DNA from: Panopea generosa
Taxonomy: Eukaryota; Mollusca; Bivalvia; Adapedonta; Hiatellidae
Direction of reading: 5' to 3'
NCBI GenBank assembly: GCA_029582155.1
Contig: CM055897.1
Coordinates: 3,393,001-3,457,000 of the forward strand
Length of the DNA: 64,000 nucleotides
Made by a program: the position numbers and the translations under genes. Below the pieces are notes generated by a model that was not told where the DNA came from, made no database searches, and worked only from the letters and a program-made list of their open reading frames with translations. Within the stretch, counting starts at the first letter, position 1; each line of letters begins with the position of its first letter. Positions 9,171-49,069 of the stretch are shown one piece after another.

Positions 9171-9216
9171 GTTTCAGGAGAATATATCGTGTCGTTTACA
9201 TTTCAAACGTGGAACA

Positions 9217-10827
9217 AACGCCAGTATAAAAAAACGCCAGTATAAACATACGCCAGTATAAACATATGCGCCAGTATAAACATACACCAGTATAAACGTA
9301 AGTATAAACATACGCGCCAGTATACACGTACGCCAGTATAGACGAACGCCAGTATAAACATACGCCAGTATAAACGTACGCCAGTATAAACATACGCCAG
9401 TATAAACGTAAGTATAAACATACGCGCCAGTATACACGTACGCCAATATAAACGAACGCCAGTATAAACATACGCCAGTATAAACGTACGCCAGTATAAA
9501 TATACGCCAGTATACACGTACGCCAGTATAGACGAACGCCAGTATAAACGAACGCCAGTATAAACATACGCCAGTATACACGTACGCCAGTATAAACATA
9601 CGCCAGTATAAACGTAAGTATAAACATACGCGCCAGTATAAACATACACCAGTATAAACATACACCAGTATAAACGTAAGTATAAACATACGCCAGTATA
9701 AACGTAAGTATAAACATACGCCAGTATAAACATACACCAGTATAAACATACACCAGTATAAACATACACCAGTATAAACATACACCAGTATAAACATACA
9801 CCAGTATAAACATACACCAGTATAAACGTAAGTATAAACATACGCCAGTATAAACATACACCAGTATAAACATACACCAGTATAAACATACACCAGTATA
9901 AACATACGCCAGTATAAACGTAAGTATAAACATACGCCAGTATAAACGTAAGTATAAACATACGCCAGTATAAACATACACCAGTATAAACATACACCAG
10001 TATAAACATACACCAGTATAAACATACACCAGTATAAACATACACCAGTATAAACATACACCAGTATAAACGTAAGTATAAACATACGCCAGTATAAACA
10101 TACACCAGTATAAACGTAAGTATAAACATACGCGCCAGTATACACGTACGCCAGAATAAACGAGCGCCAGTATAAACATACGCCAGTATACACGTACGCC
10201 ATTATAAACGAACGCCAGTATACACATACGCCAGTATAAACGTAAGTATAAACATACCAGCCAGTATACACGTACGCCAGTATAAACGAACGTCAGTATA
10301 AACATACACCAGTATAAACGTAAGTATAAACATACCAGCCAGTATAAACGAACGTCAGTATAAACGAACGCCAGTATAAACATACACCAGTATAAACGTA
10401 AGTATAAACATACGCGCCAGTATACACGTACGCCAGTATAAACGAACGCCAGTATAAACATACGCCAGTATAAACGTACGCCAGTATAAACATACGCCAG
10501 TATAAACGAACGCCAGTATAAACATACACCAGTATAAACATAAGTATAAACATACCAGCCAGTATACACGTACGCCAGTATAAACGAACGCCAGTATAAA
10601 CATACGCCAGTATAAACGTACGCCAGTATAAACATACGCCAGTATAAACGTAAGTATAAACATACCAGCCAGTATACACGTACGCCAGTATAAACGAACG
10701 TCAGTATAAACATACGCCAGTATACACGTACGCCATTATAAACGAACGCCAGTATACACATACGCCAGTATAAACGTACGCCAGTATAAACATACACCAG
10801 TATAAACAAACGCCAGTATAAACAAAC
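9217..10827. repeat. 16-bp minisatellite array, about 100 units
   Basis: The consensus unit on the plus strand is CGCCAGTATAAACATA, with the variants CACCAGTATAAACATA, CGCCAGTATAAACGTA, CGCCAGTATACACGTA and a 12-bp short form AGTATAAACATA. Runs of the CACC variant cluster near 9725-9900 and 9965-10065, showing local homogenisation. The minus strand is open in three overlapping frames (up to 537 codons), because the unit has no stop on that strand and 16 bp rotates the frame every unit. The resulting Tyr/Leu/Val-rich peptides repeat every 16 residues. Being open in all frames argues against coding. Confidence 0.95.
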
Positions 10828-14527: not shown

Positions 14528-16935
14528 GGTAGTAGGTCTAGACTACGATTATTCTATAGATATGTTATTGTGTGGACAGTTTATCGTCAGGCATTATGTC
14601 TTGTATACTAGTATAGTAGGTCTACGGTTTTTCTATAAAGATTTTATTGTGTGGACATTTTGTGTTAAGGCATTATGTCTTTTATACAAGTACAGTAGGT
14701 CTATGGTTATTATACAGAGGTTTTATTGTGTGGACAGTTTATCGTAAGGCATGATGTCTTGTGTTCTAGTAAGTAGATAAACGGTTATTCTATAGTGATT
14801 TTATCGTGTAGACAGTTTATCGTAAGGTATTATAATGTATTGTATAATAGTATAGTAGGTATACGATTATTTTATATATATATTATTGTGTGGACAGTTT
14901 ATCGTAAGGCATTATGTCTTTTATACTAGTACAGTAGGTCTACGGTTATTATACAGAGATTTATTGTATGGACAGTTTATCGTAAGGCATGATGTCTTGA
15001 GTACTAGTAAAGTAGGTATACGGTTATTCTATAGTGATTTTATCGTGTAGAAAGTTTATCCTAATGCATTATGTCTTGTTAACTAGTATAGGAGGTATAC
15101 GGTTATTCTATAGAGATTTTATTGTGTGGACAGTTTATCGTAAGGCATTATGTCTTGAGTACTAGTAAAGAAGGTATACGGTTATTCTATAGTGATTTTA
15201 TCGTGCAGACAGTTTATCCTAATGCATTATGTCTTGTTAACTAGTATAGGAGGTATACGGTTATTCTATAGAGATTTTATTGTGTTAACAGTTTATCGTA
15301 AGGCATTATGTCTTGTGTACTAGTATAGTAGGTCTACGGTTATTATACAGAGATTTTATTGTGTGGACAGTTTATCGTAAGGCATTATGTCTTGAGTACT
15401 AGTAAAGTAGGTATACGGTTATTCTATAGTGATTTTATCGTGTAGACAGTTTATCCTAATGCATTATGTCTTGTTTACTAGTATAGGAGGTATACGGTTA
15501 TTCTATAGAGATTTTATTGTGTTAACAGTTTATCGTAAGGCATTATGTCTTGTGTACTAGTATAGTAGGTCTACGGTTATTATACAGAGTTTTATTGTGT
15601 GGACTGTCTATCTTAAGGCATTAGGTCCTGACGTGTACTAGTACAGTAGGTCTACGGTTATTCTATAGAAATTGTATTATGTGGACAGTTTATCGTAAGG
15701 CATTAAGTCTTGTGTACTAGTATTGTCGGTCTACGTTTATTCTATAGAGATTTTATTGTGTGGACAGTTTATCGTAAGGCATAATGTATTGTGTAATAGT
15801 ATAGTAGGTCTACGGTTATTCTTTAGAGATTTTATTGTGTGGACAGTTTATCGTAGGGCATAATGTCTTGTATAATAGTATAGTACGTCTACGGTTATTC
15901 TTTAGAGATTTTATTGTGTGGACAGTTTATCATTAAACATTATATCTTGTATACTAGTATAGTAAGTATTCGGTTATTCTATAGAGAATTAATTGTGTTG
16001 GCATTTTATCGTTACGCTTAATGTCTTGTATACTAGAATAGTAGGTCTACGGGTATTCTACAAAGATTTTATTGCCTTGACTGTTTATCGTACGGAATTA
16101 TGCCTTGTAGGCTAGTATAGTAGGTATACGGTTATTCTATAGATATTTTATTGTGCAGACAGTTTATCGTAAGGCATTATGTCTTGTGTTCTAGTATATT
16201 CGATCTACGGTTATTCTGTAGATATTTTATTGTGTAGACTGTTTGTCCTAAGGCATTATATCTTTTATACTAGTTTAGTAGGTCTACGGTTATTCTATAG
16301 AGATGTTATTGTGTAGACAGTTTATCGTTAGGCATTATGTCATGAATAATAAGATAGTAGGTCTACTGTTATTCTATAGATATGTTATTGTGTGAACAGG
16401 TGATCCTAAGGCATTTTGTCATGTATACTAGTATAGCAAGTCTACGGTTATTCTGAAGATATTTTATTGTGTAGACAGTTGATCGTAAGGCAAGGCTTTA
16501 TGTGCTTTATGCTTTATGCAAGGTGATCCTAAGGCATTATGTCTTGTTTACTAGTATAGTAGGTCTACGGTTATTCTATAGAGATTTCATTGTGTGGACA
16601 GGTGATCGTAAGGCATTATGTCTTGTTTACTGGTATAGTAGGTCTACGGTTATTCTATAGAGATTTCATTTTGTGGACAGGTGATCGTAAGGCATTATGT
16701 TTTGTATACTAGTATAGAGATTTTATTGTGTGGACAGGTGATTGTAAGGCATTATGTCTTGTATACTAGTATAGTAGGTCTACGGTTATTCTATAGATAT
16801 GTTATTGTGTGGACAGGTGATCCTAAGGCATTATGTCATGTATACAAGTATAGTATGGCTACGGTTATTCTATAGAGATTTTATTGTGTAGACGGTTTAT
16901 CGTCAGGCATTATTATGTCTTGTATACTGGTATAG
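14528..16935. repeat. 79-bp satellite-like array, about 30 units
   Basis: The unit contains GTAGGTCTACGGTTATTC, TATAGAGATTTTATTG, TGTGGACAGTTTATCG, TAAGGCATTATGTCTT and GTATACTAGTATA; the total is 79 bp. Higher-order structure is visible: the marked variant GGAGGTATACGG recurs at 15091, 15249 and 15486, that is at two and three unit lengths. The variants GTGATTTTATCGTG and TCCTAATGCATT travel with it. Near 16480-16530 one unit is disrupted by a short TTTATGC-rich insertion. The unit is not a multiple of three, so the ORFs found here are incidental. Confidence 0.95.
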
Positions 16936-17530
16936 TACACTGTTGTCTGTTTATTGACTGGTTTACATCATTCGCAATGGGAAAGTGTCGCGTATGTAAA
17001 ACGTAGTCTGGCAGAGCAACTGTGTTGTTTATAATGTGACTTTGATGATAGAGCGATGTTGGCGTGTCTGTTTGCGCTCCATTTATCTACCTTAAAACCC
17101 CAACTTTTACTGTCAGGAAAGAAATTATTTTTAAGAAAAAAATATCAAATTACAACGCTTCACTAGGCTATCTGCTGATGGTGAATTAACACAGATCTCT
17201 GAGTACAGAGTGCATATCACTCGAATTTCATTTTTTTTACAGTTAGAGTTAAACTGCATGTAACAAACATTGTTTGAAAACTATTTTTGCCAATTAAATG
17301 TATTAACACTATTCTGTAGTATGCAACATTTTAACAAAAACAATGCATTTATGACTTAAACATTTTGAAAAAGGATTCTCTGATTTGAATTATGCCCCAG
17401 AGCCATTTTGCGGCTTTTATATGGCAGTTTGGGGCCTTAAATGGGTTTACTCTCCCAAATGAGTGGTTTTCTATGTTCTCAAACATTCGATAATATTACC
17501 CACCTAACTGTGTAACAGAAAGAGCGGATA
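16936..17530. other. Intergenic sequence
   Basis: No gene or repeat recognised. Confidence 0.45.
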
Positions 17531-20080: not shown

Positions 20081-20335
20081 CTATCTGACTAGTCGCTTGC
20101 ACATGTCAACCACACTTTGGGAATCTCTATGGCAGCATTCGTTATAAAGTTGTAAACTGTTATACATTCTGGCACATACGTAGCAGGTCGTGTGCTCGTC
20201 CTCGTCAAATCCGCAGAAACCTGTCCTCAATGCTTTCGTCTGTTCATGATAACTTCTGCGGATTTCAACAGAAGGGAACGTAAGGACACCGGAAATGACG
20301 AAAAGTAAAATCTGTACAGTCGTGTAAGTGAACAT
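20081..20335 (-). CDS. Secreted six-cysteine peptide precursor, 84 aa
   Basis: The best gene in the window. From the ATG at 20335 the frame gives 84 residues and stops at TAG (20083-20081). Residues 1-20 form a typical signal peptide (MFTYTTVQILLFVISG, then VLTF), so the product should enter the secretory pathway. The remainder is compact and hydrophilic, with cysteines at 41, 51, 54, 67, 68 and 79 (CxxC at 51-54, adjacent CC at 67-68). Six cysteines suggest three disulphides. Arg-Arg lies at 26-27 and Lys-Arg at 80-81. The exon is preceded by a strong acceptor, a pyrimidine-rich run ending TATTTTCAG at 20339, just three bases before the ATG. An upstream TATA, initiator and donor complete a two-exon model. 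The size and CxxC...CC...C pattern recall small lophotrochozoan neuropeptide or hormone precursors (whitnin/SPTR- or PKYMDT-like), but that family name is a tentative recollection. The longer open frame upstream of the ATG crosses the acceptor and is not used in this model. Confidence 0.65.
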   Translation of the reverse strand: MFTYTTVQILLFVISGVLTFPSVEIRRSYHEQTKALRTGFCGFDEDEHTTCYVCARMYNSLQLYNECCHRDSQSVVDMCKRLVR

Positions 20336-20338
20336 ATT

Positions 20339-20936
20339 CTGAAAATAGACAAAGAAAACATTATTAAAAAACATGCTTGAATGCACGAGGATTGCACGTC
20401 GTCTATCCAATAATCACTTCAGTTTATGTTTGTTATGTTTGATTACACCGGAAGTCCGTTAACAAACCGAGAACTGAGTATTTTAAAAAGCCATCAGATC
20501 AAGTTTGAGATCAAATATGCGTCCTTTGGCATCAGATGTCAACACCCTATCCACGACACCATCACCACGCTTGAATACAATTTTATGATACATTTATCTT
20601 GAAAGAAACTGAGAAAGATAATATATTTAAAGACGTTGACAGAGGCAGGCAATCACTTGTCCACAGTTATGAGCTGACCAGTTGGTCTCGAACACAACGA
20701 TATTGGGTAATGAATCATTGGAAACAATATCTTATCGGGTTTTAATGGTGTAAATATAACAAACCGAATGATAAATAAGATTTGTAGGATTACATAATGT
20801 CATAAGTTTCCAATATATACAAAGATTCACTATCACTGACATTTGTAGAATTAATATATTCATTATATATAAGTATCGCCATGTTATCTTATATTATTTT
20901 TACGTTTAGAATAGCATACAACATGATATGAAATAC
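20339..20936 (-). other. Proposed intron of the secreted-peptide gene
   Basis: A GT (20936-20935, in AAG|GTATTT) to AG (20340-20339, in TTTTCAG) intron of 598 bases separates a 40-base non-coding exon from the coding exon. A splice just before the ATG is common in peptide-hormone genes. It is AT-rich with no other features. Confidence 0.45.
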
Positions 20937-20976
20937 CTTAATTCTCCCGGGTCAGACATAGTCTGAAGTACCGACT
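20937..20976 (-). other. Proposed 5' non-coding exon
   Basis: It runs from the initiator A at 20976 to the donor AAG|GTATTT. It includes the GC-rich word CCCGGGAG and has no in-frame start of its own that would compete strongly. Confidence 0.4.
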
Positions 20977-21003
20977 GATATACAGGTCCACTGTCTTTAT
21001 ATA
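20973..21003 (-). promoter_or_regulatory. Core promoter: TATA box and initiator
   Basis: On the minus strand TATATAAAG spans 21003-20995 and TCAGTC, an initiator-type sequence, spans 20978-20973. The first T of the TATA box is 27 bases from the initiator A, slightly closer than the usual 28-31. The pairing with a downstream donor, acceptor and signal-peptide ORF makes it more than a chance AT run. Confidence 0.45.
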
Positions 21004-22346
21004 CAGTATATATCATCTTTATATAGAAGTATGATTTTGTGACTTACATTTTAATTATAATTAATCTCAGCTGTCAGTACTAAATTAACAAATCTATTTT
21101 TTCATCATATTGAATTCTAATATGATTTGGAATATTTAATCATAATATGTTGGTTATTGGTTACAGTGTGTGTAGAGCGTCTAGTTTGTACCCTTATTTA
21201 TTTGTTTGTTGAGGAATGTGACAAGACTCACGTTTTGATTCAGGAAAATATGATATTTCTTTTCCTGTAGTCAGTTTTTTATGACTACTTAACTCAAATA
21301 TGCTTTTATTTCAGATAACGATGGAAACATGAGTTAGTACTGTCTGTAAGAAAGTATTTTGCTTTTATTTCAAACACGTTTATACTTAGCACAAAACGCT
21401 GCACCTGTCATCAAACATCCGTATCTGCGTGGTAGTTTGCATGATAAATGTCATGTGTGCATGCTTGGTAAAGATAAGTGAATGCCATTTTTATCAAATT
21501 TTCAAAACCGGCTGATTACGTTGAGAGCTTGTAGCTAGTATACTGTATAGTACGGAGCCATTACATTCTAAAATTTCTCAATATCGTCATCTTCCTTTGT
21601 AGTGTTTGGAAATTAAGAGCATTAAAACTGGAATATAGTATCTTGTTTTCTACTTATATATATAACGGTACGCTATGTGTCGCAAATGTTCACTATCATC
21701 TAGTCATCTAATGTAAGGTATTTTACTCACAATTATTTAAATATCATGTTTAAATAAATTATTTATAAATCATATATATGTAACTATAAACATATATCGT
21801 GATCACATTTTATTTCTTTACTTATTTAAAATCGATCAAACTTACACTCAGCATGTAGTCAAATGTTATTTTAAACCCTTATTATAAAGGAAGAATCTAA
21901 ATCACTGGTACAAAATGTTTTTACATAGAATTTACCTTTGTTTCCAAAACTATATCAAACTGAGTAGTAATTGAACACTTTTTAGTTATTTTAATAGTTA
22001 ATGCTTATTTACACGTAAGTAACTATCAACTGTGAATCAGTTTCTGTGTGTGCTCTTAGCAAAGGTTCGCTGTCCTTGTTCATGCCATCTTATATACACC
22101 CTTTGAAGGTTCTGGATTGTAACCTCACATCTCTGTTTAAAGGTACTCATACACATGCTATTGACGCTTTTGACCAAAGAGGTACCAGTTCATTTATGTC
22201 TGACCATTTTTAAGAAATACGAAGTTTTTTTAAGATTGTATAAATATCCTGTCAGCATTTGTTGTGTAACAATATCATACTCTTTTGTGAAATATTCCGT
22301 CACTGCATTGATTTATCTTAACATCTTGATTCAAAGGCATGAAAAA
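21004..22346. other. AT-rich intergenic sequence
   Basis: No gene recognised. It is the presumptive upstream region of the secreted-peptide gene on the minus strand. Confidence 0.45.
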
Positions 22347-22603
22347 CGGGGCGGTAGTGTAATGATAGAGTGTTGGCCGCTCACGCCAGAGGTTGCGGGT
22401 TCGATCCGCCGGTCGACCCGATGCCGCCCATAAAACAACACTCAGTACTGGTTCTTCCCAGGAAGCTGACAACACTCAGTACTGGTTCTTCCCAGGAAGC
22501 TGACAACACTCAGTTCTGGTTCTTCCCAGGAAGCGGAGTCGGGAGCGGATCATATAAGTTCTGAGTTTTCGTCGCAATTGAGCTAAAATAAATTAGTATA
22601 AAC
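22347..22603 (+). repeat. tRNA-derived SINE, family B, copy 2, with internal triplication
   Basis: The head GGGGCGGTAGTGTAATG and B box GGTTGCGGGTTCGATCC are the best preserved of this family. The body block AACACTCAGTACTGGTTC plus TTCCCAGGAAGCTGAC (34 bp) is repeated nearly three times at 22437, 22471 and 22505. The other copies have it once. The 3' end GTCGCAATTGAGCTAAAAT matches the copies at 12236 and 58126. Confidence 0.85.
22437..22535 (+). repeat. 34-bp tandem triplication inside the SINE
   Basis: Exact 34-base spacing between starts (22437, 22471, 22505). The third unit has one change (CAGTTCTGG for CAGTACTGG) and then continues into the normal SINE 3' part. Confidence 0.9.
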
Positions 22604-22952: not shown

Positions 22953-23139
22953 TCTTATTTGTTTTACCCCGAATGTGAAACCAGATAAATCCTGTCTGAT
23001 GTCTCTCTGTGCAGAGCCAGTACTAAGCATATGCGGATAAAGTATCTTGCTCAAAGACACAATACCTGGCCGTTGTAAGGGAACGAACCCGCGACCCACT
23101 GATTCTAGGTTCGATGCTCTACCATTGGACCACGCGCTT
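22953..23139 (-). repeat. tRNA-derived SINE, family C, copy 2
   Basis: On the minus strand: GCGTGGTCCAATGGTAG, AGCATCGAACC, GTCGCGGGTTCGTTCC, then TGTCTTTGAGCAAGA, CATATGCTTAGTACTGG and GGTTTCACATTC. It is convergent with the family E SINE that ends about 20 bases away. Confidence 0.8.
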
Positions 23140-24636
<1,497 letters not shown>

Positions 24637-25379: not shown

Positions 25380-25860
25380 ATCGACATTTCAACATTTTTT
25401 AATCGTTCTGCTTTCGACTATTCAAAATCGTGTATTCGACTATTCAATATCTTGATTTCGACTATCCAATATCGTGGTTTCGACTATTCAATATCGTTGT
25501 TTCGACCATCAAAAAAACGTGGTTTCGACTATTCAATATTGTGGTTTTGACTATTCAGAATCGTGGTTTCGACTATCCAATATCGTGGTTTCAACAATCC
25601 AATATCGTGGTTTCGACTACTCAAAATCGTGGTTTCGACTATCCAATTCCGTTGTTTCGACTATCCAATATCGTGGTTTCGACTATTCAATATCGTGGTT
25701 TCGACTATTCAAAATCGTGGTTTCGACTATTCAATATCGTCGTTTCGACTATCCAATATCGTGGTTTCGACTATTCAATATCGTGGTTTTGACTAGTAAA
25801 TATCGTGGTTTCGACTTTTCAACAACGTTGTTTCGACTTTACATCATCTTGGTATCAGCG
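25380..25860 (+). repeat. 21-bp minisatellite array, about 22 units
   Basis: The unit is TTTCGACTATTCAATATCG plus TGG or variants; C/T alternates in TATCC/TATTC and AAAAT/AATAT. The length is a multiple of three and the consensus is stop-free in three plus frames, producing overlapping ORFs of up to 141 codons in different frames. That is evidence against any one being a gene. Edge units degrade into TTTCGACTTTTCAACAACG at the right end. Confidence 0.95.
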
Positions 25861-44594: not shown

Positions 44595-47500
44595 CCACCT
44601 TAATAGAAAAGGGAAGAATATTACAATATATTCCCTCAGGAACTCCTTCAATAGAAATGGGGTGTATATTACAATATCTTCCTTCAGGAACACCTTCAAT
44701 AGAAGTGGGGCGTATATAACAATATCTTCACTCAGGAACCCCTTAAATAGAAGTGGGGCGTATATTACAATATATTCCTTCAGGACCCTCTTCAATAGAA
44801 GTGGAGCGTATATTACAACATCTTCCCTCGGGAACCCCTTCAATAGAAGTGGGGCGTATATTACAATATCTTCCCTCGGGAACCCCTTCAATAGAAGTGG
44901 GGCGTATATTACAATATCTTCCCTTAGTAACCCCTTCAATAGAAGTGGGGCGTATATTACAATATCTTCCTTCAGGACCCCCTTCAATAGAAGTGGGGCG
45001 TATATAACAATATCTTCCCTCAGTAACCCCTTCAATAGAAGTGGGGCGTATATTACAACATCTTCCCTCAGGACCCCCTTCAATAGAAGTGGGGCGTATA
45101 TTACAACATCTTCCCTCGGGAACCCCTTCAATAGAAGTGTGGCATAAATTACAATATCTTCCCTCAGGCACCTCTTCAATATAAGTGGGGCGTATATTAC
45201 AATATCTTCCCTCGGGAACCCCTTCAATAGAAGTGGGGCGTATATAACAATATCTTCCCTCAGGAACCACTTAAATAGAAGTGGGGCGTATATTACAATA
45301 TATTCCTTCAGGACCCCCTTCAATAGAATTGGGGCGTATGTTACAACATCTTCTCTCGGGAGCCCCTTCAATAGAAGTGGGCGTACATTACAATAGCTTC
45401 CCTCGGGAACCCCTTTAATAGAAGTTGGGCGTATATTACAACATCTTCCCTCGGGAACCCCTTCAATAGAAGTGTGGCATAAATTACAATATCTTTCCTC
45501 AGGCACCTCTTCAATATAAGTGGGGCGTATATTACAATATCTTCCCTCGGGAACCCCTTCAATAGAAGTGGGGTGTATATTACAACATCTTCCCTCAGGA
45601 CCCCCTTCAATAGAAGTGGGGCGTATATTACAACATCTTCCCTCGGGAACCCCTTCAATAGAAGTGGGGCGTATATTACAATATCTTCCCTCGGGAACCC
45701 CTTCAATAGAAGTGGGGCGTATATTATGATATCTTCCCTCAGGACCCCCCTTCAATAAAAGTGGGGCGTATATTACAATATCTTCCCTCAGGAACCCCTT
45801 AAATAGAAGTGGGGCGTAAATTACAATACATTCATTCAGGACCCCCTTCAATAGAAGTGGGGCGTATATTACAACATCTTCTCTCGGGAACCCCTTCAAT
45901 AGAAGTGGGGCGTACATTACAATAGCTTCCCTCGGGAACCCCTTTAATAGAAGTGGAGCGTATATTACAACATCTTCCCTCGGGAACCCCTTCAATAGAA
46001 GTGGGGCGTATATAACAATATCTTCCCTCAGGAACCCCTTAAATAGAAGTGGGGCGTATATTACAACATCTTCCCTCGGGAACCCCTTCAATAGAAGTGG
46101 GGCGTATAACACAATATCTTCCCTCAGGAACCCCTTAAATAGAAGTGGGGCGTATATTACAACATCTTCCCTCGGGAACCCCTTCAATAGAAGTGGGGCG
46201 TATATTACAATATCTTCCCACGGGAACCCCTTCAATAGAAGTGGGGCGTATATTACAATATCTTCCCTTAGTAACCCCTTCAATAGAAGTGGGGCGTATA
46301 TTACAATATCTTCTTTCAGGACCCCCTTCAATAGAAGTGGGGCGTATATAACAATATCTTCCCTCAGTAACCCCTTCAATAGAAGTTGGGCGTATATTAC
46401 AACATCTTCCCTCAGGACCCCCTTCAATAGAAGTGGGGCGTATATTACAACATCTTCCCTCGGGAACCCCTTCAATAGAAGTGGGGCGTATATTACAATA
46501 TCTTCCCTCGGGAACCCCTTCAATAGAAGTGGGGCGTATATTATGATATCTTCTCTCAGGACCCCCTTCAATAGAAGTGGGGCGTATATAACAATATCTT
46601 CCCTCAGGAACCCCTTAAATAGAAGTGGGGCGTATATTACAATATATTCCTTCAGGACCCCTTTTCAATAGAAGTGGGGCGTATATTACAACATCTTCTC
46701 TCGGGAACCCCTTCAATAGAAGTGTGGCATCAATTACAATATCTTCCCTCAGTCACCTCTTCAATATAAGTGGGGCGTATATTACAATATTTTCCCTCGG
46801 GAACCCCTTCAATAGAAGTGGGGTGTATATTACAACATCTTCCCTCAGGACCCCCTTCAATAGAAGTGGGGCGTATATTACAATAGCTTCCCTCGGGAAC
46901 CCCTTCAATAGAAGTGGGGCGTATATTACAATATCTTCCCTCGGGAACCCCTTCAACAGAAGTGGGGCGTATATAACAATATCTTCCCTCAGGAACCCCT
47001 TCAATAGAAGTGGGGTGTATATTACAATATATTCCTTCAGGACCCCCTTCAATAGAAGTGGAGCGTATATTACAACATTTTCCCTCGGGAACCCCTTCAA
47101 AAGAAGTGGGGCGTAAATTACAATATCTTCCCTCAGGAACCTTTTCAATAGAATCGGGGCGTATATTACAATATCTTCCCTCGGGAACCCCTTCAATAGA
47201 AGTGGGGCGTATATTACAACATCTTCCCTCGGGAACCCCTTCAATAGAAGTTGGGCGTATATTACAATATCTTCCCTCGGGAACCCCTTCAATAGAAGTG
47301 CGGCGTATATAACAATATCTTCCCTCAGGAACCCCTTAAATAGAAGTGGGGCGTATATTACAATATATTCCTTCAGGACCCCCTTCAATAGAAGTGGAGC
47401 GTATATTACAACATCTTCCCTCGGGAACCCCTTCAATAGAAGTGGGGCGTATATTACAATATCTTCCCACGGGAACCCCTTCAATAGAAGTGGGGCGTAT

Positions 47501-49069
47501 ATTACAATATCTTCCCTTAGTAACCCCTTCAATAGAAGTGGGGCGTATATTACAATATCTTCCTTCAGGACCCCCTTCAATAGAAGTGGGGCGTATATAA
47601 CAATATCTTCCCTCAGTAACCCCTTCAATAGAAGTTGGGCGTATATTACAACATCTTCCCTCAGGACCCCCTTCAATAGAAGTGGGGCGTATATTACAAC
47701 ATCTTCCCTCGGGAACCCCTTCAATAGAAGTGGGGCGTATATTACAATATCTTCCCTCGGGAACCCCTTCAATAGAAGTGGGGCGTATATTATGATATCT
47801 TCTCTCAGGACCCCCTTCAATAGAAGTGGGGCGTATATAACAATATCTTCCCTCAGGAACCCCTTAAATAGAAGTGGGGCGTATATTACAATATATTCCT
47901 TCAGGACCCCCTTCAATAGAAGTGGGGCGTATATTACAACATCTTCTCTCGGGAACCCCTTCAATAGAAGTGGGCGTACATTACAATAGCTTCCCTCGGG
48001 AACCCCTTTAATAGAAGTGGAGCGTATATTACAACATCTTCCCTCGGGAACCCCTTCAATAGAAGTGTGGCATAAATTACAATATCTTCCCTCAGGCACC
48101 TCTTCAATATAAGTGGGGCGTATATTACAATATCTTCCCTCGGGAACCCCTTCAATAGAAGTGGGGTGTATATTACAACATCTTCCCTCAGGACCCCCTT
48201 CAATAGAAGTGGGGCGTATATTACAACATCTTCCCTCGGGAACCCCTTCAATAGAAGTGGGGCATATATTACAATATCTTCCCTCGGGAACCCCTTCAAT
48301 AGAAGTGGGGCGTATATAACAATATCTTCCCTCGGGAACCCCTTAAATAGAAGTGGGACGTATATTACAATATATTCCTTCAGGACCCCCTTCAATAGAA
48401 GTGGAGCATATATTACAACATTTTCCCTCGGGAACCCCTTCAAAAGAAGTGGGGCGTAAATTACAATATCTTCCCTCAGGAACCTTTTCAATAAAATCGG
48501 GGCGTATATTACAATATCTTCCCTCGGGAACCCCTTCAATAGAAGTGGGGTGTATATTACAACATCTTCCCTCAGGACCCCTTTCAATAGAAGTGCGGCG
48601 TATATTACAACATCTTCCCTCGGGAACCCCTTCAATAGAAGTGGGGCGTATATTACAATATCTTCCCTCGGGAACCCCTTCAATAGAAGTGGGGCGTATA
48701 TAACAATATCTTCCCTCAGGAACCCCTTAAATAGAAGTGGGGCGTATATTACAATATATTCCTTCAGGACCCCCTTCAATAGAAGTGGAGCGTTTATTAC
48801 AACATTTTCCCTCGGGAACCCCTTCAAAAGAAGTGGGGCGTAAATAACAATATCTTCCCTCAGGAACCTTTTCAATAGAATCGGGGCGTATATTACAATA
48901 TCTTCCCTCGGGAACCCCTTCAATAGAAGTGGGGCGTATATTACAATAGCTTTCCTCGGGAACCCCTTCAATAGAAGTTGGGCGTATATTACAACATCTT
49001 CCCTCGGGAACCCCTTTAATAGAAGTGGGGTGTATATTACAATATCTTCCCTCAGGAACCTCTTCAATC
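44595..49069. repeat. 48-bp minisatellite array, about 93 units, with higher-order repeats
   Basis: The plus-strand unit reads CCTTCAATAGAAGTGGGG, CGTATATTACAATATC, TTCCCTCGGGAACC (48 bp). Variants are shared in long blocks: CCCTTAGTAACC occurs at about 44918, 46261 and 47510; CCTTCAAAAGAAG at 47098, 48441 and 48825; GTGGCATAAATTAC or close forms at about 45140, 45476, 46716 and 48068. Recurrence distances are near 1344 (28 units), 1249 (26 units), 384 (8 units) and 336 (7 units). Because the unit is 16 codons long and four of six frames lack stops, ORFs of 677, 448 and 380 codons appear on the minus strand (repeat peptide LLLKGFPREDIVIYAP) and shorter ones on the plus strand. One-base indels (for example GTGGGCGTACATT) break every frame. 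Confidence 0.97.

Follow-up and report, generated by a model that had tools for sequence, protein, structure and literature searches.

The 64,000-base window of the Panopea generosa genome analyzed here (C4:3393001-3457000) carries on its minus strand a candidate gene for a secreted peptide with six cysteines. Judging from the predicted fold and the sequence comparisons described below, we read its product, with a probability of about one half, as a divergent secreted hormone-like peptide that belongs to the EH/CHH-ITP fold class and is not the product of the genome's canonical eclosion hormone (EH) gene. An earlier note on this DNA had suggested a hormone or neuropeptide, with a tentative comparison to whitnin/PKYMDT. 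The sequence, and to a weak degree the fold prediction, speak for a secreted six-cysteine peptide that may be a hormone, whereas the whitnin/PKYMDT part of the suggestion had to be dropped. The features of the locus are as follows.

20081..20335, minus strand: coding sequence, uninterrupted 84 codons plus TAG.
20279..20335, minus strand: predicted signal peptide covering residues 1 to about 19, with the cleavage point placed by eye; hydropathy averages 2.7 over the best 11 residues of the leader.
20255..20260, minus strand: dibasic Arg26-Arg27, a possible convertase site that would release residues 28-84.
20084..20254, minus strand: possible mature peptide as read from the sequence, residues 28-84, 57 residues with six cysteines; the fold was predicted for residues 21-84.
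20339..20936, minus strand: proposed intron of 598 bases, with splicing predicted from the sequence.
20937..20976, minus strand: proposed 5' non-coding exon 1 of 40 bases, donor AAG/GTATTT after 20937.
20957..20959, minus strand: an upstream ATG, located within exon 1 at 17 bases past the putative start site.
20973..20978, minus strand: initiator-like TCAGTC, putative transcription start at the A at 20976.
20995..21003, minus strand: TATA-like box TATATAAAG; the TATA plus initiator pattern occurs twice in the window.

Re-reading of the sequence confirmed the open reading frame (ORF) as it had been described, with a hydrophobic leader and six cysteines; it runs without interruption from the ATG at 20335 to the end of the stop codon at 20081. 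The cysteines lie at residues 41, 51, 54, 67, 68, and 79, which gives the spacing C-x9-C-x2-C-x12-CC-x10-C, with five residues after the sixth. The positions given earlier for the TATA box (21003), TCAGTC (20978), the donor, and the 598-base intron were likewise all correct, and a second copy of TATATAAAG starts at 21025 on the same strand. The pyrimidine-rich acceptor TTTGTCTATTTTCAG places the exon start at 20338, three bases ahead of the ATG. It is strong, as had been claimed, and belongs to the best 1% in the window: by our simple home-made scores, 61 of the 6108 AGs scored equal or higher (its own AG included), and for the donor the same was true of 258 of the 7700 GTs. The GC content at the first, second, and third codon positions of the coding sequence was 42, 39, and 49%, while that of the window is 32%.

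The fold class was suggested by a single-sequence AlphaFold model of residues 21-84, which was all-helical with a mean pLDDT of 73. In this model, the order of the cysteines relative to the predicted helices is the order found in CHH, a model-based likeness to be read with weak fold matches and a putative disulfide pairing. Foldseek returned five matches, of which the three sensible ones, all weak, were the centipede peptides 2mun, 2m35, and 2mvt; these are described in the literature as related to CHH/ITP hormones, and 2m35 and 2mvt are also reported as top PDB matches of Aplysia CHH DREP (PMC10501145). When the peptide was aligned using MAFFT, five of its cysteines coincided with those of both domains of the genome's EH (EH1 and EH2), at identities of 24% and 19%. 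Block similarity was examined by permutation tests, in which blocks from the second cysteine to four residues past the sixth were compared, no more than one gap being allowed in each, and residues were permuted, cysteines being excluded. The comparison of the peptide with EH1 gave z 2.2 and p 0.02-0.03, which is not strong because five comparisons were made with the peptide. As yardsticks, EH1 and EH2 gave z 3.0, and pairs of CHH/ITP sequences gave z 5.6-7.0.

The likely EH gene of this genome was located at G000:C4:92541849 (L004, 1405-1833), where a leader and two EH domains stand in one open frame. The domains are separated by KR (GKR), and oyster EH is likewise described as two domains split by KR (PMC8398477). 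Against the Pfam profile PF04736, with a cut-off of 25, L004 reached 25.7 bits when the genome was searched and 24.7 bits (E 1.9e-5) with hmmscan. The locus reads TTTTTACCTATTTCAG AA ATG, followed by the leader and both domains without interruption, and its acceptor scored the same as that of the six-cysteine gene. The two gene layouts are thus alike in sequence, each with an ATG 2-3 bases after a strong acceptor and one apparent coding exon, both introns being predicted.

A number of results weigh against the hormone-like reading, both at the level of the gene and at that of the peptide. The gene model, with its predicted transcription and splicing, was read from the genome sequence of one species. 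The ATG of exon 1, absent from the earlier note, would open at 20959 a frame of 44 codons after splicing, out of frame with the main ATG and overlapping it. In addition, the frame of the ORF stays open 5' of the acceptor and includes a further in-frame ATG, so an unspliced start is possible; the EH locus also has an upstream in-frame ATG, and splicing is therefore putative at both loci. Under deliberately loose criteria, ORFs of 60-150 residues with a hydrophobic leader and at least six cysteines after residue 20 numbered two in the whole window, the gene under study and one within a 16-base tandem array, and one, the gene under study, in the 55,000 bases left when the main arrays were cut out. 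However, when these 55,000 bases were re-sampled 30 times with a first-order Markov model, one or two such ORFs turned up in four of the re-samplings, and the ORF by itself is therefore not decisive. Eight ATG frames reached 84 codons or more, compared with between 1 and 6 in a set of 10 re-samplings.

The upstream ATG and the four re-samplings with a similar ORF would also suit a chance ORF or a decaying, unexpressed gene, and so would the other genome match. The genome (1.47 Gb, 39 contigs) was searched by scoring the best candidates; among those scored, the locus itself was the one DNA match and the one full (100%) protein match. Thus, a single copy was found in the Panopea generosa genome. 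One more protein match, at C3:77385336 (L003, 1501-1659; E 0.065, 35%), contains two internal stops. By eye, it keeps C54 and C68 and loses C41, C51, and C67 (two of the five cysteines spanned), and it is either a decayed relative or a chance match. The viral contigs scanned with the peptide gave no match. We nevertheless consider a chance or decaying ORF very unlikely in view of the third-position GC of 0.49 in surroundings of 32% GC, the rank of the acceptor, and the coherent helical model. The ORF alone is weak evidence; base composition, acceptor, and model strengthen the case.

At the level of the peptide, the Pfam scan (E up to 10, HMMER filters on) listed neither Eclosion (PF04736) nor Crust_neurohorm (PF01147), and the locus under study was not among the eight places found by the genome search with PF04736. 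Five of the eight places were read, L004 and, as ORF lists, L005, L006, L007, and L011; the latter four look like chance matches. The spacing of the peptide, x9-x2-x12-x0-x10, differs at C1-C2 and C4-C5 both from EH (x3-x2-x12-x3-x11 in EH1 and x3-x2-x13-x3-x11 in EH2) and from three CHH/ITP sequences (x15-x2-x12-x3-x8). Relative to EH1, x2 and x12 are the same and x10 stands against x11, but x9 and x0 replace x3 and x3. Block similarity was not significant with EH2 (p 0.19) or with the three CHH/ITP sequences (p 0.07-0.13), and EH and CHH/ITP likewise showed no similarity to each other (p 0.11-0.71, six pairs). The AlphaFold model was built without an alignment, and the Foldseek E-values of 2-3 are not significant. 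Moreover, the five Foldseek matches of the predicted model included no CHH, MIH, or Ta1a chain, although the fold search with Aplysia CHH DREP is reported to have reached CHH and Ta1a (PMC10501145). The PDB sequence search with the peptide gave a single chance-like match. The same search with an insect ITP returned CHH, CHH-L, and MIH chains and two chance-like ferredoxins; since no centipede peptides appeared, sequence alone does not link ITP to the centipede folds either.

The weak fold scores and the lack of a significant profile match are consistent with another kind of secreted cysteine-rich effector (antimicrobial, mantle, or salivary) whose helical three-disulfide fold arose convergently, and small folds of this type are reported to recur, as in shrew and centipede peptides. 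This explanation seems unlikely to us, because the cysteine order and the helix placing of the model follow CHH and the predicted gene layout resembles that of the genome's EH gene.

If the hormone-like reading holds, a short leader exon would be spliced to one coding exon, and the 84-residue precursor would lose its signal peptide and perhaps also a short stretch ending in Arg26-Arg27, unless signal cleavage alone takes place. The remaining residues, about 57, would be held by three disulfides, putatively C41-C68, C51-C67, and C54-C79 (1-5, 2-4, 3-6), a pairing proposed from the likeness of the modelled fold and the order of the cysteines to the helical fold of CHH/ITP and EH. By analogy with EH, whose receptors are described as guanylyl cyclases, the peptide might be released from neurosecretory cells and act on a membrane guanylyl cyclase receptor. 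For ITP, G-protein-coupled receptors have been reported in silkworm and a guanylate cyclase in Drosophila (PMC12611267).

A further, doubtful proposal is that within the EH/CHH-ITP fold the peptide represents a spiralian lineage of its own, in which C4 and C5 are adjacent, the cysteine layout lies between those of EH and CHH/ITP, and the gene layout is EH-like; it would then be a candidate link pointing to a single origin of the EH and CHH/ITP hormones, as well as a new hormone of molluscs that acts on a guanylyl cyclase receptor. The EH-ITP/CHH link has so far merely been suggested, because the cysteines of the two groups do not fully align (PMC8398477; PMC5627052), and the 2023 paper on CHH DREP presents it as the CHH group's first peptide from outside Ecdysozoa (PMC10501145). 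In the parts of the published literature covered by our search, no six-cysteine CHH-like mollusc peptide besides EH was found. If conserved, this third six-cysteine layout would provide a concrete sequence for testing the EH-CHH/ITP link and a new hormone candidate in mollusc physiology.

The window also contains tandem arrays. A 16-base array (about 103 copies) occupies 9213-10824, a 79-base array (about 25 copies plus further ones) 14543-16937, and a 22-base array (about 19 copies) 25412-25838. A 48-base array at 44618-49068 (about 93 copies) has several open frames on each strand, with repetitive ORFs of up to 708 residues, and is probably a satellite. Stretches resembling the head of a tRNA-derived short interspersed element (box A/B-like) were seen by eye at about 22340-22420, about 23060-23140, and, on the minus strand within the proposed intron, about 20505-20585, the last of which looks degenerate; scanning the window for Rfam families and for tRNAs gave no matches.

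Among known systems, two candidates were rejected. Haliotis whitnin is described as a 114-residue precursor of SPTR, PKYMDT, and ERYM peptides, ERYM having a single disulfide (PMC3434067). The suggestion in the earlier note is all that speaks for a whitnin/PKYMDT-like precursor; the two cysteines of the whitnin disulfide peptide, their different layout, and the other peptides of that precursor reduce its probability to practically nil. Colipase/prokineticin was the sole Pfam listing for the peptide (Colipase, E 0.25 over 21 residues), and colipase domains are described as having ten cysteines. A proenkephalin N-terminal domain was considered as a further conceivable candidate. The peptide could also be an orthologue of CHH DREP, described from molluscs and annelids (Koch 2023; PMC10501145), that has diverged, gained a third disulfide, and lost the coding intron. 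Both are small secreted spiralian peptides of similar size, placed after the signal peptide, and share the PDB neighbours 2m35 and 2mvt at similar identity. However, CHH DREP is described with four cysteines in two disulfides and with two exons separated by a phase-2 intron, whereas here six cysteines, with three possible disulfides, and the leader lie in one ORF, with the proposed intron 5' of the ATG; such an origin is decidedly unlikely. As neither the EH profile and spacing nor these two CHH DREP features were found, the peptide was not filed in either family, although it may work like EH or CHH DREP.

The centipede HAND/SLPTX peptides (2mun, 2m35, 2mvt) are the best structural neighbours and share a compact helical fold without a long tail; they are arthropod venom peptides, and the weak fold match is uninformative on function. 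Arthropod CHH/ITP differs in the x15, x3, and x8 spacings (three sequences) and in a long tail after C6 where the peptide has five residues, and its Pfam profile does not list the peptide; common to both are six cysteines, the CxxC-x12-C core, the predicted helix order, and a possible dibasic site that precedes the mature portion. The EH of L004 consists of two KR-split domains, EH1 having C-x3-C at the start and in the middle where the peptide has x9 and adjacent CC, and the peptide falls outside the Pfam Eclosion listing. Features in common are the probable secretion, six cysteines per peptide, a CxxC-x12-C core, and a C-x10/11-C end.
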